Made by a program: the position numbers and the translations under genes. A stretch of 34,446 nt of DNA from a virus: the IMG/VR virus record IMGVR_UViG_3300045790_001829, positions 1 to 34,446 of that record. The stretch is one strand, 5' to 3'. A model generated the notes under the pieces. The model saw only the letters and a program-made list of their open reading frames with translations. It made no database searches and was not told the DNA's origin. Positions 1-33,300 of the stretch are shown here, piece after piece. Position 1 is the first letter of the stretch; every line of letters begins with the position of its first letter.

Positions 1-274
1 GTAGCTCTGTCCAGTTTAAATATAACTCATCTTCTTTAGCATCATTAACTCTACCAACGCAGATCTTTATATTAACGCCAGTAAAAGGTTCTGTCATTAC
101 AACAGATATCCTTTCTGGTAGTGCCTTTGGGTAAAGACGATGATCAAATCGAGCATTAGTTATTGGTAGTTCTTCGTTAGTGAGACTATCAAATGTAATC
201 TCCATAACAGAACTCTCAAATAACTGCTCAGAAACAGGGGCAGGTGGAACCCACCCCTGAAACTCTTTAGGCAT
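1..274 (-). CDS. hypothetical protein following the capsid gene, 3' end outside window
   Basis: The reading frame starts with ATG (complement of 272-274), encodes MPKEFQGWVPPAPVSEQ and continues without a stop for 91 codons to the window edge, so its C-terminus is missing. It begins 8 bp after the capsid stop on the same strand, so it is probably co-transcribed. The upstream sequence offers only a weak Shine-Dalgarno (AAGAG). No family was recognised. Its position directly after the major capsid gene is where head-completion or connector proteins are often encoded, but this is inference from order only. Confidence 0.6.
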   Translation of the reverse strand, partial: MPKEFQGWVPPAPVSEQLFESSVMEITFDSLTNEELPITNARFDHRLYPKALPERISVVMTEPFTGVNIKICVGRVNDAKEDELYLNWTEL

Positions 275-1612: not shown

Positions 1613-2143
1613 TTAATCGCCTATTGCATCAAATAATGCTTCGCCTGTTAAGCCTTGAGTCGAATTTGTCATACCAGACTGAGACTGTGAACCGCCCATT
1701 AGTTGTGAAGCTTGTTGTCTGCGAACATCCTGGGGATCTTGACCCCCATACATTTGCCCTCCACTTCCATTAAGCTCAAGATACATTCGTATAACCTGTA
1801 TCTTTGCTTCATTGTCTCCTTGAGTCATAGCTGTCCTGTACATCGAATCCTTATTCACCCATTCTATAAAAGAACGATCATCTTCGATTTGAGGCCAAAC
1901 ACCATGCCCAAGTTGCCCGTCAAAAAATGACTGCCGTGTCATAGACTCAAACTTTTGATTCAAGTCATTGATTGGTGTGTCATATTTATCTTCGACAAAT
2001 CTACTTATCTTGTCATCAAAGTTTTCTTGTTGTTGAGACTTAAATGCTGCCATTTGTTTTCTTACGAGACGCTCTGCAATTCTTTCCGAAGTTCTCATTA
2101 CTTCGGGGAAATCTTCGATCACTCGTAAATCATCTTCTGACAA
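1613..2143 (-). CDS. scaffold-like protein, C-terminal part (after in-frame UAG)
   Basis: The stop-free frame actually extends back to the UAG at 2222-2224, the same frame as the upstream 65-aa ORF. The first usable start is a TTG at 2143 with no clear Shine-Dalgarno, giving 176 aa; the next is an ATG about 14 codons later. The protein is acidic and helical (IAERLVRKQMAAFKSQQQE), has a middle domain with FFDGQLGHGVWPQIED, and ends in a Q/S/G-rich tail and EALFDAIGD. Position between portal and capsid, together with composition, indicates a head scaffold. Read through the UAG, both parts form one product of about 268 aa, a usual scaffold size. The 26 codons between UAG and TTG encode a charged helical stretch (LRARLAVIERENELNAQ), which suggests they are translated. 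It could instead be a separate gene with internal initiation. Confidence 0.65.
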   Translation of the reverse strand: MSEDDLRVIEDFPEVMRTSERIAERLVRKQMAAFKSQQQENFDDKISRFVEDKYDTPINDLNQKFESMTRQSFFDGQLGHGVWPQIEDDRSFIEWVNKDSMYRTAMTQGDNEAKIQVIRMYLELNGSGGQMYGGQDPQDVRRQQASQLMGGSQSQSGMTNSTQGLTGEALFDAIGD

Positions 2144-2221
2144 TTCATCTTCATCTACATTATTTTTAGCCTGTGCGTTAAGTTCGTTTTCACGTTCTAT
2201 TACCGCTAGCCTAGCTCTTAG

Positions 2222-2419
2222 CTATTGATTTTCGCCCTCTTTTTTTTGCTGTGCGCTATATGCACGATCAGCGTGAGGTCGGATATCTTCGTAGCTTTTA
2301 GTAACTGAAGCTAATTGTTTTTTTAACTCAGTTAATTCTTCATTTGATACTGAGTTGTCTTGTTCTTGCTCTGGCATTTCTCCATTAAGAGGTGCTTCTA
2401 GCATATTATTACTCATCAT
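2222..2419 (-). CDS. scaffold-like protein, N-terminal part (ends at UAG)
   Basis: This 65-aa acidic ORF begins MMSNNMLEAPLNGEMPEQEQ, passes into a short predicted coiled coil (EELTELKKQLASVTKSYED) and ends KKEGENQ at a UAG. Low-complexity acidic N-terminus followed by coiled coil is typical of the start of phage scaffold proteins that sit between portal and capsid genes. The frame continues open after the UAG into the 1613-2143 gene. The ATG overlaps the end of the preceding gene (GATGAGTAA), so translation is probably coupled; no separate Shine-Dalgarno is clear. It may be a short separate product, with a minor readthrough product, or the remnant of a gene cut by an amber mutation. Confidence 0.65.
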   Translation of the reverse strand: MMSNNMLEAPLNGEMPEQEQDNSVSNEELTELKKQLASVTKSYEDIRPHADRAYSAQQKKEGENQ

Positions 2420-2717
2420 TATGGGTTAGCGACTCACGAATCAAACGATCAAGGTCAAGTACATTCTTGATTTCTTTGATCTCTCCGATGAGTACATTAA
2501 AACTAGCTACTGAAGTTCCGTCATAGAGGGGCTTCTCTGAGAGTCTTCCCTCTTTCCGTTTAAGTCTAGCCAATAAAATATTAGAGAGGCTCTTCCATCT
2601 GGGGTCTTCCTCCAGAGTCAGAAGGTATTCCAGCTTCTCCTTGTCCAGACTGTTGCTCTTGTGCAACTGCCTGTTGTTGCTGTTGTTCTGCTTCCTGCTG
2701 CTGTTGAATTTGAACAT
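2409..2717 (-). CDS. small conserved-looking protein overlapping the portal 3' end
   Basis: This 102-aa frame begins at ATG 2717 (GGAAG lies 9 nt upstream) inside the portal gene and overlaps its last 137 bp in another frame. The first 30 residues are N/S/K-rich and simply mirror the CAG/CAA-rich portal tail. The unique part is more protein-like: LEYLLTLEEDPRWKSLSN, then LYDGTSVASFNVLIGEIKEI and LDRLIRESL. Small helical proteins of this kind, with a DPRWK-like segment, are common between portal and scaffold genes in phages; their job is unknown. The true start could be a TTG around codon 18. It ends in TAATAA, overlapping the scaffold start by 11 bp. Confidence 0.6.
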   Translation of the reverse strand: MFKFNSSRKQNNSNNRQLHKSNSLDKEKLEYLLTLEEDPRWKSLSNILLARLKRKEGRLSEKPLYDGTSVASFNVLIGEIKEIKNVLDLDRLIRESLTHNDE

Positions 2718-4731
2718 TCTGTTGTTCTTCCATTAGTTCTAATAATAAGATTGAAGTCTGTTGTAGCATATCAGGTAAGTCTCCTGTAGATATATCTGCT
2801 CCTTCTTTTATCTTAGCCAATCTTTCCTGAATAATTCCTTTTCGTATATCTGCTGCTACTGCTTTCTTTTCATCTACTACTGCTTTAGTTTGGTATGAGA
2901 CATTTTCCATCTCCATTTCTTGGGCTTGTTGCTGTTGCATCTGAGCCTGTTGTTGTTCAGCTTCTTGTGCAGATTCTTCTTCCGATTTAATAAGACCATC
3001 TATCTCAAGCCCTAATCCTGCCTTTAAAGGAACGGCTAGCTTCTCAAAATTAAATCTGCCCCGCATTTCTGGTACTTGACCAACTACTTGTATAAGCTGA
3101 AGCACTTGTTGTATTGTAACTTCTTTTGCCATGAAAGTATCATAGCTTTTTGCTAGACAAAGGAAGTCACCTTTAATGCCCATGTCCTTTGAGTCTGCCA
3201 TTAGCCAATGATAGATCGCTTGGACATTTGCTGAGATCATATTATTTAAAGACCGCACAACTCCACTTGTTAATTTATTAGAGTTTTCGTTTAATATCTG
3301 CATACCAGTAGCAGTTTTAGTCTGGTACTGTGCTCCTGCTCCCATTCCAATAGGAACTTGTCCTGATGCTAAGTCAGTATTCCTTTCAATAATTTTAAGA
3401 AGATCTACTAATCCGTTAGTAACATCTGGTATACTTACCGATTTAAAAGCGTCATTAACACTCTCTCCTGCTTTTAGTCGCCAGATTTTTCCTGGATACA
3501 TCTCATAGAAATCATCTTGTGTTGAATCAAATGCATTAGGATTAAGTGCTGCCATAGGCAATGAAGACATTGTCTTACCTTCAACTATCATCCCATATAC
3601 AAAGTTCATCATGTCTTGATCATCTCGGATAGCTTCATATATACCGCTACCCCAAATGGAATCTTCTTGTTCCTGCCAATAACAGAAATCGTATGGGATT
3701 CTCCCATCAAAAGGATTTTCAATTGCACGTAAAACTTTAGAGCCTAGAACTGTAATAACTACAGGCATGTGTATTGGCTGACCTTCTTGATTAGCAGGTA
3801 TATCCATGTATGGTTCAATGTCTTCCCGACCCAACCCCCTATGCCATAGCTCTAATATAGTAAAGTTCTTGGTCTCTTCAACACCAGAGTTATAACGTCT
3901 TGGGCTTATACCGCCTGAATCCATTGATGTTTGACCTTCTCCTGTATCAATACAGCTTTCAACCAGCATCGGATCAATAGCACCATTAGACTTAATTGCC
4001 ATCATCCTCAGTTCTTGTGCAGATAAGAACCTTCTTTGTATAACCCAATCCATATCTGACTTACCTGTTGCTCCAGGTGATGGGAACGTATCCCAAATGG
4101 AAATCCATTCAACATGTGGAACCATCTCAGACTCAACAGCTTCCTCTATGATCTCTAACTGTGGGTCACGATTTGCTGTCTGATACAGTGGGTAATCAAC
4201 TTTCTTTAGTACAATAGACTTAGTAACCCCAGTACCATAAAGGGTCATTTCATTAATAGACTTGCTTAGAGTATCTTCGTAAAATGTTTCGTCAAGGACA
4301 TCTCTAATTTTTTGCTCGCAATTTTTAGCACGATTAGTAGCTTCATCATAAGGACTGGAAGATTCCAACAAATCAGGAGCAACAAATCTTGGCCTGCGTG
4401 ATGGACTAAGTTTAAACGGGACTTTGCCTGCTTGGAGAGTAGACGATAAAAGTTTTGTTCTTGCTTCATGTACTTTACGTTTTGTTAAATTCACATAAAT
4501 TCCACGGGCTTTAGCAACATCGACTGCTTTGGATGTTGTATCTGGGAATTGGCCCCGCATAGCGTGCCATCCGGACTCCCAGATTTCTTCTTTCGTTTTG
4601 CGATCTGAATCTGCTGCACCCTGTTGATACAGCTCTTGGACTATCAGACCAAGAGAATCAGGGATTAGCCCCTTCTTTTCTTCTTGGTCATCTGTAATAT
4701 AGTTATTGCTTTCGGCAATTGGTTCTACCAT
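2581..4731 (-). CDS. portal protein
   Basis: This 716-aa protein should form the dodecameric ring at the head vertex through which DNA is packaged and ejected. The N-terminal region is helical; the core contains VEWISIWDTFPSPGATG, the IPYDFCYWQEQEDSIWGSGI segment, an IRDDQDMMNF helix and GQVPIGMGAGAQYQTKTATG, a pattern usual in podoviral portals, where a GxG/Q-rich tunnel-loop region precedes the crown. From about residue 595 it turns into a Q- and E-rich coiled tail (EAEQQQAQMQQQQAQ) resembling long portal barrel helices. The start ATG lies only 3 nt after the stop of a tiny upstream gene, so coupling is likely. Its last 137 bp also encode the start of the next gene. Confidence 0.85.
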   Translation of the reverse strand: MVEPIAESNNYITDDQEEKKGLIPDSLGLIVQELYQQGAADSDRKTKEEIWESGWHAMRGQFPDTTSKAVDVAKARGIYVNLTKRKVHEARTKLLSSTLQAGKVPFKLSPSRRPRFVAPDLLESSSPYDEATNRAKNCEQKIRDVLDETFYEDTLSKSINEMTLYGTGVTKSIVLKKVDYPLYQTANRDPQLEIIEEAVESEMVPHVEWISIWDTFPSPGATGKSDMDWVIQRRFLSAQELRMMAIKSNGAIDPMLVESCIDTGEGQTSMDSGGISPRRYNSGVEETKNFTILELWHRGLGREDIEPYMDIPANQEGQPIHMPVVITVLGSKVLRAIENPFDGRIPYDFCYWQEQEDSIWGSGIYEAIRDDQDMMNFVYGMIVEGKTMSSLPMAALNPNAFDSTQDDFYEMYPGKIWRLKAGESVNDAFKSVSIPDVTNGLVDLLKIIERNTDLASGQVPIGMGAGAQYQTKTATGMQILNENSNKLTSGVVRSLNNMISANVQAIYHWLMADSKDMGIKGDFLCLAKSYDTFMAKEVTIQQVLQLIQVVGQVPEMRGRFNFEKLAVPLKAGLGLEIDGLIKSEEESAQEAEQQQAQMQQQQAQEMEMENVSYQTKAVVDEKKAVAADIRKGIIQERLAKIKEGADISTGDLPDMLQQTSILLLELMEEQQNVQIQQQQEAEQQQQQAVAQEQQSGQGEAGIPSDSGGRPQMEEPL

Positions 4732-5433: not shown

Positions 5434-7224
5434 CTATGACTTGACATAGTACTCTGTACGTTGAGATTTAGGAAAAGAGAATGTAGGTGATGGATCATGA
5501 GGATACATATAACACATGTATGCAGCAATTGCTAAAGACATAACCCTGTCATCGTGGCAACCATGCTGTGCTATCTCCTTACCATCTTTGTTAATAACAA
5601 ATGTCTGAAGCTCATCAACTGTTGTCTTGGAGAAGATATCTATCTGCCTTTCTCTTATCAATCTTCGCAACAGATCGAGTATTAACTTCCTTGTTTTTAT
5701 ATTAGTATTGAACCCTAATCTCTTTTTCTGTCTTTGTCCACGTTCGTCAAGGGCTTTCTCTATATACAAATTCTCGTATGAATGTATTGATGATAGAAAC
5801 TTTAATGTTAATAAACCATGATTGTTATTTTCAACTGCAACCAGGGCCAGGTTATACCAAGTTGCAATAGTTTTAATAACCCATGCTAACAGATCTGGGT
5901 CAATTCTAGCTGACCAAGTAGCGCACTCTTCATAGGTCTCCGCATCTAATACAGTAATAACTGAGTAATCCGAATCTCCTGTTTGGCTCAGTATGCCTTC
6001 AGATACATCTACTCCTATCCTATATTCTCTCCCTATTTGTGGTGGATTAAATACTGAGAGTTCGCCTTCTTTATGCCTTTTCATAAAGTAACGCATTTCT
6101 TCCGCACCATTCTTATAATTAAAACCATTAACAGGTACTTCAAATTTCGTTGGTGGTGATTCTCTATCCCTTTCGTCTGCGTCAAACCACATCTGAGTTA
6201 GTGTAACGCTATCAAAAGCACTGCGTCCTGAAGCCACAAACGCTTCTCTCGCAGTAGTAGGATACTCTTGATGGAATACATTTAGATCACCTTGGCATTC
6301 TGGTGATATTATTTTGTTCCTACGCCACTTCAAATTTTCTGGAGTAATTTTAAATACTATATCCCCTTCTTTAGTCTTGTAGGATATTTCTACACCTAGT
6401 AGCCCCTTCTCTTCCTCTGCTCCAAATGTAGGGTTATTCCCCATTGTTTTAATAAAACTATCATCTTTCTTTTCTTCTTTAGTTAATTCTGTCTCGTACT
6501 CATCAAATACAAACCATGGAAAGAAGATCGGTTTCAATCCTGAATCATCTTTTTCTGCACGCCACCACTCACGTTCAAAGTAATTCCCTACTCCCTTTGC
6601 TGTGCTCTCTAGCCATATTTCTGTACCATAGCCCTGCATTACACAGTTCATAAGACCTGTCGCATATTCTTTTGCTCTACTACCCCACCGTGCTACCTCT
6701 GAACAATGGAGCATATCAATACCAGCTCCTACAACTTCTGATCCTTCAACAGTACTCATGCCGTAACGAGAGTTAAGACCCTTTCCATCTACCGAACCCC
6801 ACGTTAACTCTTGCTTACCACTATAGTGAGAAAGGGGTTTAATAAAGTCTGGGTAGTTTTGTTCCATAACCTTAGTCATCTGGAACATCTCTGAGGTTGT
6901 ATTCTTTGAATGCGTGCAGATATGCACTAATTGGTTAAACATAGTAGCTGCACGTTTAAACATTCTTGCTTGAACATAGGTCGAGATACCAAAACGCCTT
7001 GCCTTTAAAACAATAATTCTGACATGGCCTATGTCTTTAAGCTGTTGCTGTGCAACCTCGTGCAATATTTTTTGCACTGAGTTCATCTTGAAAGGGATAA
7101 GTTTTTTAGTCCCAAGCTCTTGAATTTTAAGGCAATAATTAAAATAAGCCTTGTGATCTTGCAGCCGATCCATCAGCTCTTGCATTGCTTCTTTGTTAGA
7201 TTTTTTAGGAGCTACTAATTCCAT
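5434..7224 (-). CDS. terminase large subunit (ATPase and nuclease)
   Basis: This 596-aa protein is the motor that pumps DNA into the head and cuts it. The N-terminal ATPase carries IIVLKARRFGIS (residues 70-81), the R-rich Walker A variant found in many large terminases, then a Walker-B-like GIDMLHCSEVARW. The nuclease domain shows YRIGVDVSEG (about 405), with the first metal-binding Asp, then VENNNHG (about 466) and CHDDRVMSLAIA (about 555), with the last acidic pair. Length is normal. It ends with UAG immediately followed by UAA. Only 5 bp separate it from the upstream HNH gene. Confidence 0.92.
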   Translation of the reverse strand: MELVAPKKSNKEAMQELMDRLQDHKAYFNYCLKIQELGTKKLIPFKMNSVQKILHEVAQQQLKDIGHVRIIVLKARRFGISTYVQARMFKRAATMFNQLVHICTHSKNTTSEMFQMTKVMEQNYPDFIKPLSHYSGKQELTWGSVDGKGLNSRYGMSTVEGSEVVGAGIDMLHCSEVARWGSRAKEYATGLMNCVMQGYGTEIWLESTAKGVGNYFEREWWRAEKDDSGLKPIFFPWFVFDEYETELTKEEKKDDSFIKTMGNNPTFGAEEEKGLLGVEISYKTKEGDIVFKITPENLKWRRNKIISPECQGDLNVFHQEYPTTAREAFVASGRSAFDSVTLTQMWFDADERDRESPPTKFEVPVNGFNYKNGAEEMRYFMKRHKEGELSVFNPPQIGREYRIGVDVSEGILSQTGDSDYSVITVLDAETYEECATWSARIDPDLLAWVIKTIATWYNLALVAVENNNHGLLTLKFLSSIHSYENLYIEKALDERGQRQKKRLGFNTNIKTRKLILDLLRRLIRERQIDIFSKTTVDELQTFVINKDGKEIAQHGCHDDRVMSLAIAAYMCYMYPHDPSPTFSFPKSQRTEYYVKS

Positions 7225-7229
7225 TAGCT

Positions 7230-7640
7230 TTACTCATCTCTCTTAATAGTTAGAACATACTCATCATATGGAATAGTACCTTTCTTTATATTACATTCTT
7301 TGCAGCATACCGAAAGGTTTTCTTCAGCTATAATCTGTTCTCTGGTATCTAGTCTTGAGATGGGATACATGTGGTCTAGCACCCAATCGCTTTCTGGAGC
7401 CAGCCTCTTTCCACATAGATAGCATGGGGCTGTTTCATGGTCACTCTCTTTTGCTTTAATCCAACACTTTACATACGTAGTCCTATTGTAACCACCCTTA
7501 CGTAGTCTTATCTTGCCTTCCTCTTTAGCTCTGTAGAATGCTGCCTTGTCCTTACAATTACGGTTGCAATATTTCTGTGTACCTGATGCACGTGGTTTTG
7601 AAAAATATTTTTTCTTGCAATATTCACAGAACTTTAACAT
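7230..7640 (-). CDS. HNH endonuclease with N-terminal zinc finger
   Basis: The 136-aa protein has an N-terminal treble-clef-like finger (C5, C8, C25, C29 in FCEYCKK and QKYCNRNC) and a C-terminal HNH nuclease: CYLCG (C73, C76), WVLDHMYPISR with D89/H90, and ENLSVCCKECNIKKG with N108, C113, C116. HNH proteins next to TerL often assist DNA cleavage at packaging; a homing endonuclease is the alternative. Here the gene lies in line with the packaging genes on both sides, which favours the packaging role. Its stop is 5 bp before TerL, and its ATG overlaps the stop of the RuvC-like gene. The N-terminal finger resembles those in the 8091-8678 protein. Confidence 0.85.
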   Translation of the reverse strand: MLKFCEYCKKKYFSKPRASGTQKYCNRNCKDKAAFYRAKEEGKIRLRKGGYNRTTYVKCWIKAKESDHETAPCYLCGKRLAPESDWVLDHMYPISRLDTREQIIAEENLSVCCKECNIKKGTIPYDEYVLTIKRDE

Positions 7641-8107
7641 TATACTAGCGTGCTCATGAATCTTGCAATTAAGATTGCATCTGATATGCCGTGGTCTTTC
7701 TTTCTAGTTAGTTTTATATCAGGATAAAGTTGGTTAACCTTCTGAATAGACGAACCTTTTTCTTTAGGCATGTCTGCAAGTATAGCTTTCTTCCAGGATG
7801 GAGGTCGTATCAAGATGTACGGCAAGCCCATGCCCACGCACAGCCCCCTCAGAAAACCGTAACTAGCCATATATCTGCCACTCGATACGATCCCCTGGTT
7901 CGGCATCGTTTGTGATTTCTCTATACCAACTATAAGGTTGTCATACTTCGGAGAGAACCTAGCAAATATATTATGTAACTCAGGTTCATTAAGCTCCCTT
8001 TTCTTTGCAACCTCAATGATCGGCATATCTTGATAATGAATAACATTTAATTTCTTATCTAATACTGCTAACGCTCCAGAAAATCCTGGATCAATACCCA
8101 AGTACAT
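7640..8107 (-). CDS. RuvC-like Holliday junction resolvase
   Basis: This should be an RNase H-fold nuclease that resolves branched DNA before packaging. Visible residues are D6 in MYLGIDPGFSGA, E63 in VGIEKSQ, and D138/D143 in KKDHGISDAILIARF, together the acidic set of RuvC. I chose the ATG at 8107, giving 155 aa, because the catalytic strand begins directly there and a G-rich site (GGGGGG, 5-6 nt upstream) precedes it. A start at 8194 would add 29 residues inside the upstream gene. The chosen start still overlaps the upstream gene by 17 bp. Resolvases near terminases are common in phages lacking an endonuclease VII. Confidence 0.88.
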   Translation of the reverse strand: MYLGIDPGFSGALAVLDKKLNVIHYQDMPIIEVAKKRELNEPELHNIFARFSPKYDNLIVGIEKSQTMPNQGIVSSGRYMASYGFLRGLCVGMGLPYILIRPPSWKKAILADMPKEKGSSIQKVNQLYPDIKLTRKKDHGISDAILIARFMSTLV

Positions 8108-8678
8108 CCGACACCCCCCATATCCTAGATAGTTCAGCCTGAATTTTCTTTTCTTCTGATTCAGGAAGTTGCCAAGGGGAAACGCTATCATCATTTTTCA
8201 CAACGATCTCATCACCATACCTAGTAATCTCACCTCCCTTATTTAAGAAATCTTCTACCGCACTTTTAAGTTCTAGCCTTTCAGGAGTCTTAGAGTTTAC
8301 AAACGAAGCTTTAGTTACTGTCCTTTCACCAAAAGTTGGAGACCCCCAGCTTGGCATAAACCTAGCTGCAGAACATCGCATCTTTGGATTATTAGCTGTA
8401 GCCTCACGCTTAGCAGCTCTACGTTTATTATTTTCTACTTGCCAGCAATGTGCATTGCAATATTTTTGTCTACTAGTTTTAGGTATAAATGAAGTACAAC
8501 ATGTAGCGCATTTAATTAAATCGTGGACAAGTCTGCTTCTTCTTATTTTTGCTATCTCAATTTTTTGAGAATACGAACATCTGTCACAACAGTAACGTTG
8601 TCGGTGAGCTGGTAATTCTCCTTTGCAGAAAGAACAACGCTTTATACTCTGACGAATTTTATGCGCTAGTGGATTCAT
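8091..8678 (-). CDS. double zinc-finger protein of unknown function
   Basis: This 195-aa protein has two CxxC...CxxxC fingers in its first 80 residues: C15, C18, C30, C34 and C57, C60, C74, C78. The second (CATCCTSF...QKYCNAHC) is very similar in spacing and wording to the finger of the HNH protein two genes on. The rest is basic, then has a small VEDFLNKGGEITRYGDEIVV module of the type seen in short phage regulators, and an acidic tail. It may bind DNA in the packaging complex or regulate late genes; neither is shown. It overlaps its neighbours at both ends (4 and 17 bp), so it is part of the operon. Confidence 0.7.
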   Translation of the reverse strand: MNPLAHKIRQSIKRCSFCKGELPAHRQRYCCDRCSYSQKIEIAKIRRSRLVHDLIKCATCCTSFIPKTSRQKYCNAHCWQVENNKRRAAKREATANNPKMRCSAARFMPSWGSPTFGERTVTKASFVNSKTPERLELKSAVEDFLNKGGEITRYGDEIVVKNDDSVSPWQLPESEEKKIQAELSRIWGVSDVLGY

Positions 8679-8914
8679 TTACCCTCCATCTCAACCATAG
8701 TAAACATAGTGCCTACATTATCTGCCATGTCTAAAAAATATGAATCAGCTTTTAAGTTTTTATTTTCGGCAGTAGCAATAAGATCTGCATATGGGACACC
8801 CGTCTTCCAAGATGTAGCTGCCGAAGCTAACATTAACGCAAGCATAGCTCGTGAATCCATAATCATTTTCTGTTCTTCTTTAATCTGAGCTGGGGTCTGT
8901 TTCTTTCTTGGCAT
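8675..8914 (-). CDS. 79-aa hypothetical protein
   Basis: The protein starts MPRKKQTPAQIKEEQKMIMD, has an alanine/leucine-rich helix (SRAMLALMLASAATSWKTGV) and ends MFTMVEMEGK. It overlaps the TerS-like gene by 35 bp and the zinc-finger gene by 4 bp (ATGA-type junction), which supports translation. No family was recognised. The helix is too charged at its flanks to be called a membrane segment confidently. Confidence 0.6.
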   Translation of the reverse strand: MPRKKQTPAQIKEEQKMIMDSRAMLALMLASAATSWKTGVPYADLIATAENKNLKADSYFLDMADNVGTMFTMVEMEGK

Positions 8915-9497
8915 TTGGTTCCTTTGTGAATACGCCTTCGATTACATCCTCTACTTGAGGATTCATTTGAACATCTAATTGTTTAAGAGCATCCTCAACC
9001 CTGAAGACATTCTCATTCTTCTGCTCGATGTATTTGTACTCATTAGGCATAGCTAATGCGATACGCTCACTCCTAATGATATCCATCACTGTCTTTGCCT
9101 TTGCTGATAGCAACTCCACCTCTGCCTTCTCGTTAGAGAGAAGCACCATCTCTTTCAACTTATTAAGCTCATCTAAATGCTGGTCTGATATAGTTGCTCT
9201 TGAGTCTGCATACTTCTTTATCATCTGGGTATGTACGTTAGCCAGAGCGTCCTCTCTCTTGCAGGCATACTCCCAGTCCCCCGCAGTAACATAGCTCTGC
9301 AATGTGCTTCGCCATATACCGTACTTGTCTACTATCTGCCCTCTAGTGAGAAGACCTGACTCGTAGTCAACCTTAATCGCAGCCCTCATAACAGCTCTGT
9401 GGTGAGCCTTCTCATGCTTTGACCCAGTAGTAACTTTAGTGGTGTTCTTATTGCCCTGCTTCTTTACCTTAACTCTAGTGCCAATTTTACTCTCCAT
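8880..9497 (-). CDS. probable terminase small subunit
   Basis: This 205-aa protein has a basic N-terminus, then a helix-turn-helix (SGLLTRGQIVDKYGIWRSTL, ending SYVTAGDWEYA, about residues 50-80), followed by a long helical middle (ISDQHLDELNKLKEMVLLSN) and an acidic tail. A DNA-binding HTH ending in a 'GDWE'-type motif plus a helical oligomerisation region is the usual plan of phage small terminases, which recognise the packaging site and recruit TerL. It is upstream of TerL in the same operon, though five genes apart. A generic regulator is the alternative. Confidence 0.6.
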   Translation of the reverse strand: MESKIGTRVKVKKQGNKNTTKVTTGSKHEKAHHRAVMRAAIKVDYESGLLTRGQIVDKYGIWRSTLQSYVTAGDWEYACKREDALANVHTQMIKKYADSRATISDQHLDELNKLKEMVLLSNEKAEVELLSAKAKTVMDIIRSERIALAMPNEYKYIEQKNENVFRVEDALKQLDVQMNPQVEDVIEGVFTKEPNAKKETDPSSD

Positions 9498-9888
9498 GGT
9501 TGTATAAGCTTACAAAGTTGCAAAATTTGATGGGGATGTCGTAGAAATCTTCACCAGCAGGATTGCGGGTGTTGGAAATGTTCTTGATGTACTTCTCTTT
9601 TAAGTTAACTCCGTTTACTAAGACTGCCTGACTACAATCATTATTCAATACCCAGAATATTAATCTGTCAGACAACCCCAGCAACGATCTCTTTCTCACA
9701 GGAATATGTACAGTAGGCCAATGCTTATTCCATTTTCCAGACCAACCTGATTTTATTTCAACCTCGTGATGCTCTTCTACGGTAGCCTTGATGTCGGCCT
9801 TGTAATCTTCTGTGTCAGGGTTAAGAGTGAGACCCTTATTCTCTAACCAGCCCCTTACCGCATCTTTAGCTCGTTGATCAAACTCCAT
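9487..9888 (-). CDS. small PD-(D/E)XK nuclease-like protein
   Basis: In this 133-aa protein the segment YKADIKATVEEHHEVEIKSG (about residues 28-47) has an Asp followed after a strand by ExK, the catalytic pattern of PD-(D/E)XK nucleases. A following SLLGLSDRLIFWVLNNDCSQ stretch looks like the next core helix and strand. The protein is near the minimal length for such a fold. It overlaps the TerS-like gene by 11 bp. It could be a real nuclease, for example in DNA processing, or a degenerate fold; the motif was found by eye only. Confidence 0.5.
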   Translation of the reverse strand: MEFDQRAKDAVRGWLENKGLTLNPDTEDYKADIKATVEEHHEVEIKSGWSGKWNKHWPTVHIPVRKRSLLGLSDRLIFWVLNNDCSQAVLVNGVNLKEKYIKNISNTRNPAGEDFYDIPIKFCNFVSLYNHGE

Positions 9889-9908
9889 GTACTGATCACG
9901 AAAAAATA

Positions 9909-10193
9909 CTATAAAAACCCCCTCATTCCCTTCATTAAATCTTCAATAGGTATCTCGCCCATTTCCTGTAGACCATCATCTAACTGCTGCGCTCTGTGAG
10001 TAGGATGGCGCAACTCTTCTTCTTTTTGCTTCTTGAGCTTGTTTAATAAATTAACTTCCTTAGCTTGTACCTTCTGGTTATGCCAGTAGAGTGCATCGCC
10101 TTTTAGTGGGCCACCCTTATCCCAATGAGAAGGTTGTGGTACAAACGCTATCCCTAAACCAAGTATCGTAAATATTAATATTAAATTGTACAT
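9909..10193 (-). CDS. 94-aa membrane-anchored or secreted protein, first gene of the late operon
   Basis: The N-terminus YNLILIFTILGLGIAFVP is a single hydrophobic segment (signal anchor or uncleaved signal). The rest is soluble, with a charged helix (LLNKLKKQKEEELRH) that may form a coiled coil and a GMRGFL end. The ribosome site is AAAGGA, 7 nt before ATG. It is the first gene after the promoter at 10237-10266. Layout (one membrane segment, periplasmic helix) would suit an inner-membrane spanin or an inner-membrane accessory protein; the length is short and no lysis neighbours are visible, so this is tentative. It ends in UAG. Confidence 0.65.
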   Translation of the reverse strand: MYNLILIFTILGLGIAFVPQPSHWDKGGPLKGDALYWHNQKVQAKEVNLLNKLKKQKEEELRHPTHRAQQLDDGLQEMGEIPIEDLMKGMRGFL

Positions 10194-13517: not shown

Positions 13518-13664
13518 ATGAGACATAGCCTTAATGAACAGAGCTTGTACGATATCATGCTTGAACTTATACGGACTACTCTGTATGAAGATAACCCTAA
13601 TGGAGAAGTAAATGAAAACATTGACAACACAAGAATCCCAGATAGCGACGATGATCTGCTCTAA
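13518..13664 (+). CDS. 48-aa acidic peptide overlapping the ATPase gene
   Basis: The ATG follows the preceding stop directly (TAAATG). The frame encodes MRHSLNEQSLYDIMLELIRT and an acidic C-terminus ending DSDDDLL, and overlaps the first 53 bp of the ATPase gene in another frame. It has no ribosome site of its own but fills an otherwise empty gap. The helical N-terminal half looks protein-like; the overlapped part may be incidental. Confidence 0.4.
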   Translation: MRHSLNEQSLYDIMLELIRTTLYEDNPNGEVNENIDNTRIPDSDDDLL

Positions 13665-14778
13665 AGCAGGCATTCCTATTTTTATGCACTCACACCAAGG
13701 TGTAGGTAAAACATCTTTGGTGAAGCAATTGCACAGGCACATTCAAAAAACTAACCCAGATTTTGGGCTAGTTGATATACGATTGTCGCAAATTGAGGGC
13801 ATAGACATACGTGGATTGATGCAGATAGTAGATGGCAGAACAGTCTATTGTCCACCATCTTATTTGCCAACTGACCTAGATAAAAGACTTATAGTTTTCT
13901 TTGACGAAGTCTTACTCGGAGAGCCAGATGCATTAAAAGCCGTAATGCAATGGGTTTGCGAAGGTAAAGTTGGAGACCACCTGCTGTCACCCCACACCAC
14001 ATTCATTGGTGCATCCAATAGATCAAAGGATGAAGCAATGAATACAAGGATGTCTGGGCCTATGGCTAATCGTTGGTGTCATATCGAGGTTGATAATGAT
14101 CTCGATGAGTGGATAAGGATTTCCCGCAACGGATTCCAGAACAACGGAGAGTATCTGCCGGACTGGGACGCACTCCCTGAGACTCTCGGAAGAGAGTGTG
14201 GGATAGATCTTGACGGAAGGATTATGTTCTTCATCAAGCATCAGGATCGTGATGACAATCCAGTGTGGAGAAACTTCGACAAGTCTAGGTTCCGAAATGG
14301 CGACTATGCCCACGCAACAATGCGTTCCTGGCATGACGTATCAAGGATTCTTACTGTCCTTGAGCGTGACGAAGATATATGGAACCAAATACCAACAATC
14401 AAAAAGATACGCAGAGCATTAGTCTGTGGTCTTGTTGGTGACGGAGTCGGCACTTCGCTCACTGGTCTTATCGATCAACTCGATAAGCTAGTTGACATCG
14501 AAGATGTTAAGAAGCGTGGTGACAAAGCAAAGTTACCAGATAAAAACGATCCTATGTGTCTAGGAATAACGTGGATTAGTGTAGGTGCGTTGACTAATCA
14601 GAGACACTTTAACTGTGATACTGCGGATAACATCCTGCGGTACATTAATAAATTAGGTGAAGAGATATCACCTGACCTCCCAAAGACAACTCAAAGTTTG
14701 ATTGAGAATGCAGGCAACGCAGATGTTTTAGCTGCCTGTGAGCAATCAAAGGAGTATCACACCTTAATATCGGCATAA
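13612..14778 (+). CDS. MoxR-type AAA+ ATPase
   Basis: This 388-aa ATPase has Walker A HQGVGKTS (K33, T34), Walker B LIVFFDE (93-99), a sensor-1 Asn in FIGASNRS (N136) and an arginine region RMSGPMANRW. After the core comes a helical C-terminal domain. MoxR-type ATPases act with a VWA-domain partner to remodel or insert cofactors in target complexes; that partner is encoded at 16097-17491, three genes on. A similar ATPase/VWA gene pair is known in N4-like phages, where its job is unsettled. The ribosome site GGAG lies 6-9 nt before ATG 13612. Confidence 0.85.
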   Translation: MKTLTTQESQIATMICSKAGIPIFMHSHQGVGKTSLVKQLHRHIQKTNPDFGLVDIRLSQIEGIDIRGLMQIVDGRTVYCPPSYLPTDLDKRLIVFFDEVLLGEPDALKAVMQWVCEGKVGDHLLSPHTTFIGASNRSKDEAMNTRMSGPMANRWCHIEVDNDLDEWIRISRNGFQNNGEYLPDWDALPETLGRECGIDLDGRIMFFIKHQDRDDNPVWRNFDKSRFRNGDYAHATMRSWHDVSRILTVLERDEDIWNQIPTIKKIRRALVCGLVGDGVGTSLTGLIDQLDKLVDIEDVKKRGDKAKLPDKNDPMCLGITWISVGALTNQRHFNCDTADNILRYINKLGEEISPDLPKTTQSLIENAGNADVLAACEQSKEYHTLISA

Positions 14779-20729: not shown

Positions 20730-22060
20730 AACCAAACATATCTACAGAGGTATCATTGCTGAGTATATGCCTAGCATATCCAGACTTATTACCTAGTATA
20801 AGAACAACAGTCCAACCAGATATGTTTGCTGACTCTAAGAATGGTATCATATATAACACTGCTCTTGAGTTGTTTGATCTGGGTAAGAGTGTTGATACTG
20901 TTACAGTATCGTCTGAGATCATGAACAACAATACCTTGATGAATAAGTTTGGTGGTGAGATGGATGTTCAGGACTCCTTCATGAATGTGATGGAGGTTGA
21001 ACCTAAAGTAGAGAACTTCCAAGATTATTCTGATATAATAATCAGAGCATATCGTAAGGAACATGCAAGTAAGGAAGCACATAAGACTGCCGAGAAAATA
21101 AAGGCTGGTGCTGATGCTAGCTCTGTAGTTGAGAGCCTTACTGAAACCATACAGGAGTTGGAAAGATCTTCTTCAAAACCATTCTCCTCCTTCTTAGATA
21201 TAGCCAAGACCGAAGTTGATGAGATCCATAACCGTAGTGATAAAGGTGAGGTAAGTATATCGGAGCAGTTTGTTCCTACACCTTTTAAGAGTCTGAACAA
21301 TTTTATATATGGGTTCAGGTATGGATCTCTGTCACTTCTTGGTGCTAGACCAGCGATGGGTAAGACTACTGTTGCTGTCGCACTTGCCGCTGATGCCGCA
21401 CGTAGGGGTATCAAGACCCTATTCATTTCCATTGAGATGAACAAGACTGAGATAGCACAGAAGTTTCTGTCTCATGTTAGCGGGATACACTTCAATAAGA
21501 TACTTGAGGGCTACACATTTGAGCAGTCTGATTGGGATACAATGCTAAGCACGATGGGAGATCAGCATGAAGCGTGGTCTAAGAATCTTTCTATTGATGA
21601 TACCTCTGAGACTACAACAGATGTTATGCGTTCAATTAACTGGGGCATTAACGAGGGGTATAAGTATATAATCGTTGACCACTTGCATGAGCTAGCCTTT
21701 GATGACAGACGATCACACATCTCATTGACTGAGGCATTGGGAGATTTTGTTAAGCGTCTAAGGAATACAGCTCAAAGAAATAACATAGCGTTACTCGCAC
21801 TGTGCCAGCTTAACAGAGAGGTTGAGAAGAGATCATCCAAGATCCCTATCTCAAGCGACCTTGGAGAGAGTGGTACTCTTGAGCGTGTAGCACATAACAT
21901 TTTATTTCTACACCGACAAGAGCAGAGCAAGGGAGAGATTGACCTTGTTGTTGCGAAAGCACGTGGTGGATTAACAGGTATCGCTACCCTCGACTTCGAT
22001 GGTGGTACTAATAAAGTTCAAGACCAAACCGCATCCAGCAGTAGTTGGTCTAGCAATTAA
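20726..22060 (+). CDS. dnaB: replicative DNA helicase, DnaB family
   Basis: This 444-aa protein has an N-terminal DnaB domain ([20 protein letters not shown]) and a RecA-like motor with Walker [13 protein letters not shown] (about 203-214), [15 protein letters not shown] (H1a), Walker [11 protein letters not shown] (about 313-322) and [14 protein letters not shown], typical of DnaB. No primase domain is fused. It should unwind the fork, loaded by the preceding protein. AGGAGGTGAGTT before ATG is one of the strongest ribosome sites seen. Confidence 0.93.
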
Positions 22061-22082
22061 TCTTATAATCTATAAGGAAATC

Positions 22083-22754
22083 ATGGAACATAACAGGAGA
22101 GTACTGCCCCCAAGACGTAAAGGATTCACGCAGAAATCAAAAATTGGTGGACATAAAGTATACCTGAGAACAGGTGAGTATGAAGACGGAAGCTTAGGAG
22201 AAATCTTTATCGACATGCACAAAGAAGGTGCGGCATTCAGATGCCTCATGAATAACTTTGCAATTGCTATCTCACTTGGGCTACAACATGGGACTCCATT
22301 AGAAGAGTTTGTTGATGCATTTACATTCACAAAATTTGAGCCATCAGGTATGGTTCAGGGCAGTGAAGCTATTAAGATGTCAACGTCTATCTTAGATTAT
22401 ATCTTCAGAGAATTAGCCGTATCTTATTCTGGGAGAAATGATCTGGCTCATGTAGTACCAGAAAAACTAGAAGAAAAAGAATTACTAAGATTCGCAACCG
22501 ATAAAGAGTCGGGGTATGATGAAGGTCATATGATAGTAACAGACTCAGATGGTTTAGAGGTTGATGAAGAAGCAGTAGAAGATAACAAACATCGTTATCT
22601 GTCTGGCTCTGCACCAATAGTAGATAAGATCGCAGAAGCAAAGATGAAGGGCTATGAAGGCGAGGGCTGTACTAACTGTGGTCAATTCACGATGGTAAGG
22701 AACGGCTCATGTCTTAAGTGCAACTCATGCGGTGAAACTTCTGGCTGTTCATAG
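22083..22754 (+). CDS. nrdJb: stand-alone C-terminal part of class II (B12-dependent) ribonucleotide reductase, NrdJb-like
   Basis: I chose ATG 22083 (AAGGA, 4-5 nt upstream), giving 223 aa. The protein matches the C-terminal TSCPD region of Nrd[68 protein letters not shown] and a YIFRELA helix. It ends in a cysteine-rich tail CTNCGQFT...[10 protein letters not shown], like the redox-active end that re-reduces the enzyme. Its length is close to NrdJb (about 231 aa), the separate subunit in Pseudomonas aeruginosa. No catalytic NrdJa part is found anywhere in the window. It may recruit a host NrdJ, complement a subunit off-window, or do something else. It ends UAG-UAA. Confidence 0.82.
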
Positions 22755-24315: not shown

Positions 24316-27300
24316 TTAACGGAAAGCCTTACTCTTAACTGCCTTGTTAATAAACATGTTCCTTAACTGGTACAATCTGTCCATCTTAGCTCCCTTAACA
24401 TCAGCACCCATATCCATATCATTTCTTACATCAGTAATGCGAGAGTTTATATCGTTAATACTTCTTTGTTTCTTCTTTAAGAAGGCTTTGTACTTTAACA
24501 ATTCTTTTTTATTATCATATATTTCATTGAACTTTTCTGTGTTACCAATCTTCTTTGCAAAGTTCATGTCTTGAACAGTTTGTTCTAGCTCCTTAAGTCT
24601 CTCATAAAATACTGTACCAGACTTTGTGTTCCTAAGCGGTGAAGATTTAAATATTCTTCTAGCTGCTGGGTGATCTAACAGTTTACGAGCTGGTCTTTCA
24701 GGAAATTCACCGACACTTGTTGTCAACATATCAGCAACACCAAGAATAGATGAGCCTGCCCAACCAAAGTAACCATTGATTAAATGTTCTAGCTGATAAG
24801 GAGAAAGCTTTAGCTTATCTATAGGAGAGTTCTCTAGTATCTGAGATGCGAGTATCAAAGTTTCAGATGTATACTTACCATACCTTAGACTAGGAGACCT
24901 ACCCTGACTACCAAGAGGCTCTATATCTCTATCAAAATATAGATTTTTATTCATACCCAATTCTATAAGTGGCTTGATTGCTTGTGGAACAGGTACAATA
25001 CCAAACTCCCTAGACACAAGAGTCTTTACTCCAGTAGATAAAGCCTTACCATAATCAGGGTTCTCCGCCTCTGCTAATTTAAGTGCTCTCCAAGCAATGT
25101 TACCTACAATAGAAAATTCATGAGGTTTAGGCATCTTATAAACAACTTCAGTGCCAGGGATTTTAATCCACCAGTAAGTATCCTTATCGTAATCAGGTCT
25201 GTTCTGGTATTCTTCGTCATCTTGGTAAAGCATTTCCTCAAAGATAGAAGCTAGTAAAACCATAGAACTTACAACAGCTACTGGCTTTGGGTTGTTCAGG
25301 ACTGCTCTCCCTATCTTATACTTACCTTGCAACAATGAGTTTGCAAATGGGGTAAGCGATGTTACTAATCTGACCCAGTCAGATCCTCCATGAAGAGTGA
25401 AGTCCATTAAATCTCGTGCTTCAAAAGCCGCTTCGGTCTGACTCTTACCTCCCTCCATCAATGACTTAAACAAAGTCGCTCTGTTAGCGTTCTCTAGTTT
25501 GTCACCCACCTTTGCATAAGAATCCCATAAACCCATACCCAAAGACTTTGCTTTCTTAAGTGAAGAAAGAAATGTTTCATCTGTTTCAGGGTTGTTTATA
25601 ATGTATCCTGTAGAAAGCTCCTTGTTAAGGATTGTTTCTCCATAGTTAGGATCTTCTGATCTAGTGTATGCAAACTGTATGTACCCACCGGATACTAACA
25701 TATCTGCTTCTTTATTTTTTAAAGTTGTATACCCAGCATAAGCATTCTTTATTAAGTTGTAACCTATATCAGAAGTACCAGCTGCAGACACAGTGTCTCT
25801 TACAATATTGTTTATTTTAAATATAGGATTAGCCGTTACGATCTGAGTAAGTAATCCCTTTGCCGATATTAAATACTTAAAACCAGGGAACTTAGTCTCT
25901 GCACCTAGTGATGCCAACGATTGATAGAGTAATTTATTATTAATATTATAAAGTTTTTCCTTACCATCTTCTAATACACGTAACGATCTAGCTGAAGCAG
26001 AGTCCGTTGGAGAGACCATCATCTGGGATGAGTCCATTGGATCTGTAATTTTAAGTGCAGATCTTATGGTTGTATTAGCAGCATCATTTTTAATTGACGC
26101 ATCTATTATATGTAACCAGTTATGTAACAGATTATTAAACGGGTCACTCATAGCTTTGTCTGAACCCTTTAATCTTTTAACTCCCTTCTGACCAGTTAAC
26201 GCATTATAATCCACAGGCCCGCCTTGCTTTGCGTTACCTATATCCTCCTCAATTATCCTATAGAATGGTACATAAAATTCTTGTTCAAAGTTTTCAGCAA
26301 CAGTCTTGTCAAGAAGCCCCATATCAATCCCTAACTTAATAACAGCACTGTTCATATCCATAAGATCTTTACGCACATTTTCATAAATTGCTGCCCTTGG
26401 AATCATTGCTCCTGTTGTAGCATCTTTCATTTTACCTTCGTTGTACCGAAGTCCTGCATCAATGTTAGCGTCAGTGTACCAGTTCTCTTTGCCAACCCCT
26501 CTAAGTTTGTCGGCCCTATTAAAAGCCATCCATGCCATAAATTGTTTTCTCTCAGTCTCTGTGCCAAGAGGTTTTAAGGTTTCAAAAACACTCTTAGTAT
26601 TCTTATCCAGTATAGTTTCATTAACCACCACTCCATTAACGTTTCTTTTTTCAACCTTAACACCAGAATGCCTTAGTATAGTAGCAAGAACTCCATCAGA
26701 TCTTTTGGCAAGGCGAGTAACCATGTACTCTGTCATGCCTATGTCTTCACTTATGTTCCTGAATGGATCAACAATAGAAGATACAAGACTGCGTCTAATA
26801 CCGTGCCACCATGAACTGTCTTTAGCAAACTCTGTATCTGTAGTATATATTTTATTCCACGATTCCCTTGCTGACTCAGGTAAGTCAGATCTATTAAAAG
26901 ATTCATCTTGTTGTTTAATAGATCTTTTATTTATTGTACCTATGTTTTCAATAGTCCTTATAGGTGCGCCCGTTCTTAATTTATCAGCAGATCTAAGTAA
27001 AAGCATCTTGATATCACGCTCACTCCAAGTGATGTTTACTCCTAGATCAAACATCACCTCTCTAAACCATGTTGATACCTTATCCCATAAGGTAGGCGGT
27101 GCATCTTTATATAAATTATCTGCTTGATAAGCTAGATATTCTTTAGCCGCCTGTCTTGATCTTTCGACACTAGTACCTTCTCCAACATTATCTAAATAAG
27201 AATTGTAAATTTCATCCGGTAAAGTTTTCTGTATCAAATCTACCAGCTTGTTAAAGTTTACCTCACCAAGAGAACTCTCAAGGCCAAGATGACCTATTCC

Positions 27301-30300
27301 TTCATGCCATAATGTCTTTAATACTTCATCTGTATTAGTGTGAGATGACCTAACAATATAAATCTTTCCATCTTCAAACATACCATATACATCAGACTCA
27401 CCCTTACCATCTGGTAAATCAATATAAGTATCAACAACTTCTATGTTGGGTATACTTGGAAATTTATTTGCAAACTCGTCAACGACACCTTGTACTTCTT
27501 CAAGTCTAAGCGATGGTTGTGTATGATCAATGCCTCCTTCTTCAATCCTCCTATTCCTCAGTCTCCTTCGCTCAATAGCCTCGTTAGATTGTCTAGTTTC
27601 TAGTTCTGCATTTGCGTCCCAGCCAGGAGTGCTCCCCATGACAGTGCTTTCAACAGAGCTTTCAGTAGAAGGAGTACCCAAAGAGAAAACTTCTTCTCTT
27701 AAGTTTGGATCTGTATCTTTAGCTAATGGATCTAACATCAACTCAATACTCGCAGTATTATTTTGATTTATAGATTCTGAATCTACGGAGTCTTCTAAGA
27801 TACTCGCACCAAGTCTATTAATAATTTCATTGTTGTGTTCATTCTCTATCCTAGAGAAGTCAGGGTTGTTACTCTTAATGTCTTCAATAAACTGTTGCGC
27901 TAGTTCTTCACTCTTAAATGTAACAAAGCCTTTGAATTCTTTTTCTTTTGAAACCTTCAAGTTACTATCAAGCCAGAAAACTTCAACAGAATTTTTGTTT
28001 CTTATATCTAAATGAGCATACTTAACTCTCTTTTCATCGTGTGCTTTCGTTAACTCTTTAAGTATGTCTTTACTTCTGAATAGATTTGTATACACCTCTG
28101 ATGAACTATCATCTTTTAATTCCGAAGACTCTAGCTTACGACTAAGCTGACCTCTAGGTTTATTTTTCCCAAAATTATCCTTACCTTTTCTTCCGAGTAT
28201 TCTTTTTATAACAGCAGGTACTTCTATCTTATTGACTTCACCATCTACTACACGATAGTCCTCACTGACAGGTAAGATGTACCAAATGTTGCCCTTAACT
28301 TTATGGACTACCTCAAATCCTAATCTTAATTCTTCGCCCATAAAAGTATCTATAAAATTAGTAATCCCAGGGGACTCTAATCCAGTAGCTTGTTGGTCAA
28401 AGATATCTTCTACTTCATTAGGATGTATCAACCATACGTTAGGTGGAGATGGTTTCTTAGTAGGGGTAAGGCTCTCGGCAGACAGAGCATTCTCAGAGAG
28501 GAACCCTTGTTGGATAGGGGCTTGTTCTGTGGGCGTGGATTCAGTCGTATCAGTATCAACTATTTTTGATTTTTTTTTTGGAATAAGATCTAAAGGTTCA
28601 GAACCTTTTCTTGTTAAAGCTGCATTGATTTCTATACGATCACCTTTAGTTAAGATAGGCCAGAATTTTTCCTCCATATCAGCCCTTAAGGAATCCATAT
28701 CTTGTTCAGTTTGAACACGACCAATCAGCCAGTCTCTCATTCTATTACGTATAAGATTAACTAAACTCTTTGGAGCCTTAGTATACCCAAGATCTTTTGC
28801 AATCTGTTCAGTAAAGTCCTTGCTACTTTTATATTTTGAACCGTCCCAAGCAGATACATCCTGATAATAATTCTTTCCGGGTGAAGTAATTATAGCTGTC
28901 CACTTACCTTTTGTATCTCCCGGCAAAAGAATTGTTCCTAAGTTATCTTCAGCCTGATCTTCCTTTCTTGCTGTAAGTTCTTCTATCGTAATTTTAGGTG
29001 AGGCTACAATTGATGGCTGAACAGTCTCACTTGGCTCTGCATTATCTGTAGTGACAGGAGTGCTAACCGGAACAGATTCTTTTCTAGGTTTAGCAGTAGC
29101 TGCTTGAGGTTTAAGTTTTCTGCCCGATGGTTTGGATATTTTTTCAGCAAGAGCAACGTAATGTCCGGCATGTATATTCCAGCTAGGTGTCCATACAGCA
29201 GTAACAACTTCTTTAGTAGCAGATTCTGAATTTTTAATTGATCCTTCATAATTATCTATACCCATATTATCTACATCTACGCCTGCCTCACCACCTATTC
29301 TCTTTATTACTGGGAAGCCTGCCTTACCTTCATTACTCCATAAATGATACGAAAGCTCCTCGTCACTAAATCCTCTGCCTTCTTCAGGAAGTTTGGATCT
29401 TAATTGATCTATTGCCTTGCTAGTATTTTGTATCTTATTTAAGTTCTTATTCTTCTTACTGAACATTCCTTTATTCAAACCAGTACTCAACTTTGATAAT
29501 GCTTTAGCTGCTGCCTCTCTCATCTGAGGTGCAAGTACATCATCTTCAATAACAGTTAAAGGTTCGTTTCTTTTCTCTTCCAGCTTGGCTTGTAGTCTAT
29601 TACTCTCAGCTACCATGCCTAACTGCGGTTCTAGTTCGTTAGCAGGTGAGTTGTTTCTGGTTATACTATCTGCTAGTCCTTCTGAGTATTCTTTAGACTC
29701 TTCTCTTGCTCTAGCTTGTACATCTTCACCAGTATTTGGGTCGATAAGTGGTTCGGTAAACTGAATATTGTTAGTGCTTACAGGCTCGTTAATATCAATC
29801 GTTATATTTTTAGTACCTGATTTAAAATCATGCGCCATTCTAATAAGGTCATAACCATTTGAATAAAGCACACTTATTAATTCATCTTCATTAATGTCCA
29901 TATCTAACGATACATTTATAGCTGTATCCTCAACTGCTACAGAATCCCTTTGAAAATTTATTCTCTCAGGCCATGTCTTTTCGATAGAGTCTAATGTCTC
30001 TTCTACAAAATCATTAGGGTACTTGTTGTTATTCTTTTTATAAGCTTCCTTAATATTCTTTATCTTTTTATTAACAGTTCTTTGGCTCTTGCCTTGGTCA
30101 TTAATAGGAAGGCGATCACCAACAGGTGCAACACCCTGTCTAACTGTAGTCTCTCCTTGAGAAGGAAGGGCAGTTACTTTTAAAGAATTAATCTTATCAC
30201 TTAACTTTATTATTTCTTGATTCAATTTTTTTAATTTCTTTTTTTCTATAGGATTAGCACCTATTGCTTTTTTATGTGACGCTATCTTTTTCTTCTTACT

Positions 30301-33300
30301 CTTATCTAGTTCATTTAAACTTTTACTAATAACCGCAATTCTTTCCAGCCTTGAGTCTTTCTCAGCCTTAGCTTTTGGTCTTTTCTTAGCAAGTGCTTTC
30401 TTCTCAGCCTGTAGTGCGTCTCTTTCTTTTTTAAAAAAGTCAGGTGACTTTGAATCTACTTGTTTCTCCACTTCTTCTTGCTTTTTAATTTTTTCATTCA
30501 GTGTGTCGTACTTTCTTTCAACAACAGAACGAGTCTTTTCTAAAGCTAGTATCTCTGTAGAGTCTTTACTTTCTTGACGCTCAATAATATTAGTGACTGT
30601 TTCAAAAGAACTGCTAGCTTGATTGGTCTTACCCTTACCTTCCTTAACATTAATATAAGATTTTGGTTGCCCAGTTTGAAGATGCCTTAACGCATTCTCT
30701 GCTGTACCCTGATTAATTTCTTTTTTCGGAACAAGAATATTAGGTGTAGTTAGATCTTGTTCTCTCGGAGCATAGTGATCATAGAATATAATCTTGCCAT
30801 CTATTATGCCTGCAAACTTAATTAGACTAAGGCTAGTTTCTGGCCTTGCTTTAAACCCTGTCCCTGGTTGAAGCCCAGCTTTCACTCTATCTATTTTAGT
30901 TTGAGCATCAGGGCCACCTTCTTTTATTGTATATGTAAGCTTGCCACTAGAGTTTGGTCTTTCTATTAATACAGTTTGGTTAATAAACTGTGAAACATTT
31001 TCATCGTCTATTGTTTGTGGTAGTTCGTTATTATTTTTATCATAATGTTTAAGATTAGGGTTCTCTCTGTAAATAGATGGATCAATTATTACTTCTTCTA
31101 CTGGTATATTTATAGCTGTATCAGAGCCAGTAAATGTAGTTGGTTCAGCAACAGACTCAACTACTGGTGGAGTAAGATTAAGTTTCTTAGATATACGGGC
31201 GACTATACCTGCACGGGTTTGAGAATCAATATCATATTCACTTTCTTTTTTACCCGGCTTCTTCCTTATATCTCTTCCTTCTCCGTTATCTTTTAACTTC
31301 TTATCTTTAGCAAGCTTTGCAATATCCTGTAAGATCATCCCTCTTACTTCTTTAGTCTTATACTCAGCTCCCTTTCCTTCAGAATACTGTTTGAGAACTC
31401 TCTGTATATCTGATACTGATTTTTCTTTATTAAGAATACCTTCGCTTACATTAGCGGTGGATGTAGGAGTCTGAGACGCTTCTGTATTAACAGATGTACC
31501 TGCCCTCCGCTTCTTCTCTAGTATAAGTGCGTTCCGGTTACGTATATATGATGGTATGGTGGATGGCTGTTTTTCTTCTTGAGCTGCCTTAATACGACGG
31601 TCTTGTTGTTCTATCCCCTCGTTTATTTGTTCATCACTTAATGATGATACAGTTTGTGACCCCTCCCCCCAATTTGCTGTTTCTAATATAAAGTTATTAT
31701 CTTTAGGATCAGTAGTATCATATTTCCCACCTAATAATACTTGTTTACCTGTGTCTGGATCTATAATTTTAACAGTACCTGCCTCACTCCTAGCAAAAAC
31801 CTCAACCTCAATAGGCTTACCATTTGGAAGATAAACAGTAATAACTTCCTTCCCCTCTGTTGCTACCTGTTCTATCTCATTTTCAGTAGCAAGCTCTGCT
31901 TCCGCATTGATTGGTGTCTTCTTGACTCTAGGCTTAGCTTTAACTGGAGGTGTTTCTAAATAATCTCGTTCTTGTTTCTCTTCTATCTTAATCTGCTTGT
32001 CTATTTCTCCGTATGTTAACTCTGGATTTTCTTGAGCAAGTACTAGTAACCTTTGTGCTCGTTTATTCCTTTGACCTTCCGGTATATTTAAAATACTTTT
32101 TACAAGAGCACCACTACTTTTATGAACAACAACATTAACATAAGACTTTTTGCTAGCACTTTCAGATCTTATTGTTTCAGTTTCATCTACAGTTTCTACA
32201 GTATCGTTACTAGTTCCTGAAGTTTTGTTCCTGTCACTGTTTATTTTATTAACAATATTGTTTATTTCTTTTAAAGATAAATCTGGGTTAGCATTTATTA
32301 CTTCTAAATTAATGTTCTCTATTTGAGTTCGTTCAGCCTCCGGGTTATTAGAGATCATTTCATAAATAACTTTGACTTCACGATCCTTAATCGTAGATCC
32401 TATGCTGCCTTCTTCAGTAGCGTCCCCTGTAGTTTCTTCTGGTGTGACATAGTTATCTAGTGCTTCTTGATAAATAGATGCAGTCTCCTTACGTTCAGCT
32501 AACTTTTCTTTGCTGTTAAACTCACCCATTAAAGAATCACCTGATCGAAGGAGAGACAATTCTTCATCTATAATATTTGCTTCTCGAGGATCTGTAATAT
32601 TTTTGCGCCAAGCAACAAAAGTTGCAGGATCTTTCTTATCTACTACTCTTCGTGTAGTAAACTGCAACGGCCCCTTTGGAATAAAGTCAAGATCTCCTGG
32701 TTTCTTGTAATCTAACTTCCCTTTGTTATAACCATCCTCAATAATATTTGCCTTGCCAGAACTATAATCACTATATGTTTTTATCCCTCTACCGAAACCC
32801 CCAAACATACCTACAGTACCACCAACTAACCCTTCATAGATTGCACCCGAAATACTTGTTTCATATTCAGGGATATCATTAACACCTGCACTCTCCATGG
32901 CTTTCGTCTTAGCTTCATTTGAAAACTCTTGAGAGATTACTGATGCAGAGCTTTCCTGAAGAGCTTCACGAGCAGCAGCGTTTCTTGCAGCTCTACCTGC
33001 TGTTGCTACCTTACCTGATCCAGCTTTCATTAACGCAGAGAACTTCCCAGGAACTGGGAACCAGTTTACAGGGTTCATAAAACTAGCAATACCAACTTTA
33101 GCAGCACTGGTATCTGCCTCATCCATTAAAAGTTCTTGTACTTTAATCTGTATTTCTTTTTCAGTAGCATCATTTAATTTCTCGCCTTCTCCTAATGCTT
33201 CTTCCATTTTCTTACGAACTTCTGGATCACTAACTACATCCAGATAACTAAATCCCATCTCAACTAAAGCAATTGATACTCCACCAGCAAGTAAGCTTGC

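Follow-up and report, generated by a model that had tools for sequence, protein, structure and literature searches.

One of the closest described arrangements is that of the Stenotrophomonas phage StenR_269 (OR838459.1), in which a gene annotated as scaffolding protein lies between the genes for the portal and the major capsid protein. Its product is coiled-coil-like and has 334 aa, and no interruption is annotated in it. In Pseudoalteromonas phage vB_Pun_Y3, an unnamed gene of 885 bases occupies the same place. Scaffold genes can be essential, and nu3 of phage lambda is listed as such (PMC10695390). An ordinary phage amber mutation is one base change giving UAG inside a conserved structural gene. 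Reassignment of UAG to an amino acid is genome-wide, and its mark is a low coding density when the standard code is applied (PMC11210395).

The window analysed here is the whole stretch of 34,446 nucleotides, positions 1 to 34,446 of the record IMGVR_UViG_3300045790_001829, from an uncultured phage. A scaffold-type gene lies on its minus strand at 1613-2404. It is flanked on one side by the portal gene (2581-4731; PHROG 332, head-tail adaptor, E 3e-43), with a small gene at 2409-2717 also on this side, and on the other by the major head protein gene (283-1557; PHROG 1357, E 1e-47). This placement between portal and major capsid protein has the same order as in StenR_269, whose capsid protein is related to that of the window (28% identity). 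The scaffolding protein of StenR_269 is coiled-coil-like, as the protein of the window is predicted to be, but the searches used gave no sequence similarity between the two.

Searches of PHROGs and Pfam with the intact protein of the relatives gave no significant family, and the weak matches were dismissed because they resemble coiled-coil noise; the protein of the window likewise matched no profile family. The joined protein of the window, with X at the stop, had no tblastn match among 50,697 phage records. An AlphaFold model, of low confidence (mean pLDDT 64.5, pTM 0.31), is all-helical, with long helices predicted at residues 21-85 and 101-165. The product is thus likely a scaffolding protein, which is reasonable from gene order, size and helical character rather than from demonstrated homology.

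The small gene at 2409-2717 (minus strand) is conserved, with 98-102 aa. Its frame differs from that of the portal gene, whose 3' end it overlaps, and in the relatives compared it stops just 5' of the scaffold start; Pfam gave no match for it. On the plus strand, an ORF of 141 aa at 1166-1591 is antisense to the major head protein gene. It is open in the near-identical contig L001 described below and shorter in two further relatives, L041 (131 aa) and L039 (107 aa), and it is probably a by-product of the codon usage of the other strand.

On the minus strand from 2419 to 1613 there is a single reading frame. The translation of 1613-2449 has just one internal stop in it, a TAG at 2224-2222 that is flanked as AAT CAA TAG CTA AGA. 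The ORF list divides this frame into an upstream ORF at 2222-2419 (minus strand, 65 aa, ATG start) and a downstream ORF at 1613-2143 (minus strand, 176 aa, TTG start). The initial annotation had described both as one frame split only by this UAG, with CAA directly 5' of it, and the translation agrees on both points. The start common to the relatives of the group, ATG CTA GAA, corresponds to position 2404 of the window. Counted from there, the UAG is codon 61, and the intact gene has 262-264 codons in the relatives (263 in L001). Only the window, L001, L002, L014 and L017 have a further in-frame ATG upstream, at 2419. The single long gene proposed earlier is retained, with 262-264 codons from the shared start instead of a joined product of about 268 aa.

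Protein identity to the relatives is 73-99% and runs straight across the UAG, which means that the frame is coding on both sides of the stop. The next possible start is the TTG at 2141-2143 (codon 88), and the 26 codons that separate it from the UAG are also conserved at the protein level. Judged from these alignments, the UAG breaks one genuine gene in the window record and does not separate two chance ORFs.

The scaffold genes of relatives were compared at the UAG, as the initial annotation had suggested, and a sense codon was found at this place in every case. With the downstream part of the gene as query, IMG/VR gave 29 loci, 28 of which reach codon 61, and all 28 have GAG there. In a second scan of IMG/VR, codon 61 was left free (NNN) between degenerate flanking codons. 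It gave 33 contigs, including a group less closely related (L043, L052, L056 and L061), and GAG (Glu) was the codon in 33/33, with no other codon seen at the position of the window's UAG (2222-2224). A codon-degenerate scan of IMG/VR for the UAG version found no relative; its sole match, L031, was rejected as an unrelated contig matching the pattern by chance.

Two contigs are nearly identical to the window. L001 (IMGVR_UViG_3300047669_000047) has 2 mismatches in 6004 bp (99.97% DNA identity) and carries the same gene intact at 3601-4392, between portal and major head protein; L002 has 4 mismatches in 5614 bp. Both have GAG at codon 61 and a frame open across the site. Within the gene, each differs from the window at exactly two positions, 2224 and 2177. 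The change at 2224 is G-to-T, which makes GAG into UAG. The second private difference, 47 bp away at 2177, is C in the window and T in L001 and L002, and is synonymous (AAC/AAT); the AAC is also present in three relatives. On this comparison of sequences, the UAG is a single substitution private to the window record among the records searched, which may leave out those closest to the window, so that more copies with UAG may exist.

The stretch of L001 at 6005-10084 runs beyond the left end (position 1) of the window, and a 142-aa gene matching window positions 2-274 is cut at this end, which shows that the genome is larger than the window. Toward the other end of the window, at 24316-33912 on the minus strand, lies a very large ORF. 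It encodes 3198 aa and has a Pfam LPD38 domain at residues 2899-3076 (E 3e-33). Its C-terminal end matches PHROG 18222 (unknown function), and two relatives have a 2913-aa version.

We consider it almost certain that the UAG is a private nonsense substitution in one scaffold-type gene, whether by an error (of the consensus or from minor reads) or as a recent amber variant. The G-to-T change at 2224 in this one record turned the Glu codon 61 into the stop. Among the four options listed in the initial annotation, a recent amber mutation and an assembly error are kept, and regulated readthrough and host suppression are set aside in view of GAG in all 33 relatives. About 4.9% of the possible single-base changes in these genes create a stop, and hence one nonsense change among few private differences is unremarkable. 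Downstream of the UAG the gene has no decay relative to L001, as the only other difference in it is synonymous, which indicates that the change is recent or artificial.

Of the two origins, an error in the metagenome assembly, in the consensus or from minor reads, may be slightly favoured over a real, recent amber variant segregating in the phage population. The two private differences are separated by 47 bp while the rest of the 6 kb is identical, a spacing expected by chance in about 1.6% of cases. This clustering, together with the AAC in relatives, is a hint against two independent base-call errors. It is plausible that a short patch from another (minor) haplotype is present, either brought in by the assembler or truly existing.

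If the stop is real, translation would end after 60 residues, at a codon that falls inside the first long helix of the low-confidence AlphaFold model, and the fragment would miss three quarters of the protein. Without suppression of UAG by the host or complementation by a co-infecting phage, the genome should then be defective. In a host that does not suppress UAG, a real amber in this scaffold-type gene would be expected to cripple the phage. The change resembles an ordinary phage amber mutation in its single base and its conserved target gene; unlike ordinary amber mutants, it is known from assembled metagenomic sequence alone, and may stem from assembly or sequencing. The literature on phage readthrough and on scaffold amber mutants was used as background only.

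Suppression or reassignment of UAG by the host, by which the codon is read as an amino acid, would explain why an amber is tolerated in a gene that growth normally requires, and UAG recoding occurs in other phages (PMC11210395). For this phage such a host is very improbable, since UAG acts as a normal stop elsewhere. In the window and the four relatives examined, terL ends in UAG, always at one and the same residue; the gene at 21999-22754 ends in UAG in both the window and a relative, and TAG terminates 8 of the 33 listed genes. This agrees with the earlier view that UAG is a genuine stop elsewhere and wholesale recoding unlikely. No other window gene that could be compared with relatives is interrupted. 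Among the genes compared, the window has neither the many interruptions nor the avoidance of UAG as terminator that mark recoding of UAG (genetic code 15 or similar), and the genome-wide loss of coding density is absent.

The suppressor tRNA proposed for a search was also sought: ARAGORN found no tRNA in the window, which is a fragment of the genome, or in the stretches of relatives searched; a suppressor carried by the host may nevertheless exist. One candidate for a second broken gene, at 13612-14778, was rejected. The ORF of the relatives begins 21 bases earlier, where the window has an in-frame stop; these bases lengthen the ORF on the upstream side of MKTLTTQE, the start that both share, hence there is no break.

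Leaky or regulated readthrough of the UAG, giving a short scaffold of 60 aa and a long one of 263 aa, is in line with a frame that is open and conserved on both sides, and CAA also stands before the stop at certain plant-virus readthrough sites. What counts most there is the sequence 3' of the stop, and that of the window does not match. The stop is in no relative, even those at least 99.93% identical, whereas at a readthrough site it would be kept in close relatives and followed by conserved context or RNA structure. Around codon 61, conservation of silent sites is 0.32-0.40 above expectation, close to the 0.33 averaged over the gene, and this lack of excess gives no sign of an overlapping element.

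Folding of the RNA 3' of the UAG does not clearly go beyond shuffled sequences: z is -1.82 over the longest stretch tried, and -0.82 and 0.31 over the shorter ones. In L001, which has no UAG, that longest stretch has almost the same fold, and a readthrough stem-loop at this place was rejected. With this evidence, readthrough has very little probability. It is just as doubtful that the UAG is fixed in the population of this phage and partly suppressed by its host, by which a little full-length scaffold would be made along with large amounts of a 60-residue N-terminal helix. This pair of short and long scaffold would be very recently acquired and lineage-specific, absent from all relatives found.

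Two separate genes, the downstream one with its own start at TTG 2143 or ATG 2098, are the least probable of all: the mechanical ORF list does give two ORFs and ATG 2098 is Met M103, conserved in ten aligned relatives, but the relatives have a single uninterrupted gene in which the 26 codons before the TTG are kept as protein, a conserved start shortly after the UAG was looked for in them and is absent (the TTG is CTG in 3 of the 21 distinct relatives), and no strong ribosome-binding site is seen by eye before the internal starts, as had been noted before for the downstream part.

The interruption first observed in this gene is confirmed, with an explanation that is ordinary. When only one metagenomic contig carries an isolated in-frame stop, comparison with near-identical contigs should come before any proposal of readthrough or recoding. 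For this phage and its relatives, the UAG matters little beyond annotation: a gene caller would report two short ORFs in the window where the relatives have a single gene of some 263 codons. The readthrough hypothesis for the scaffold-type gene can be dropped.
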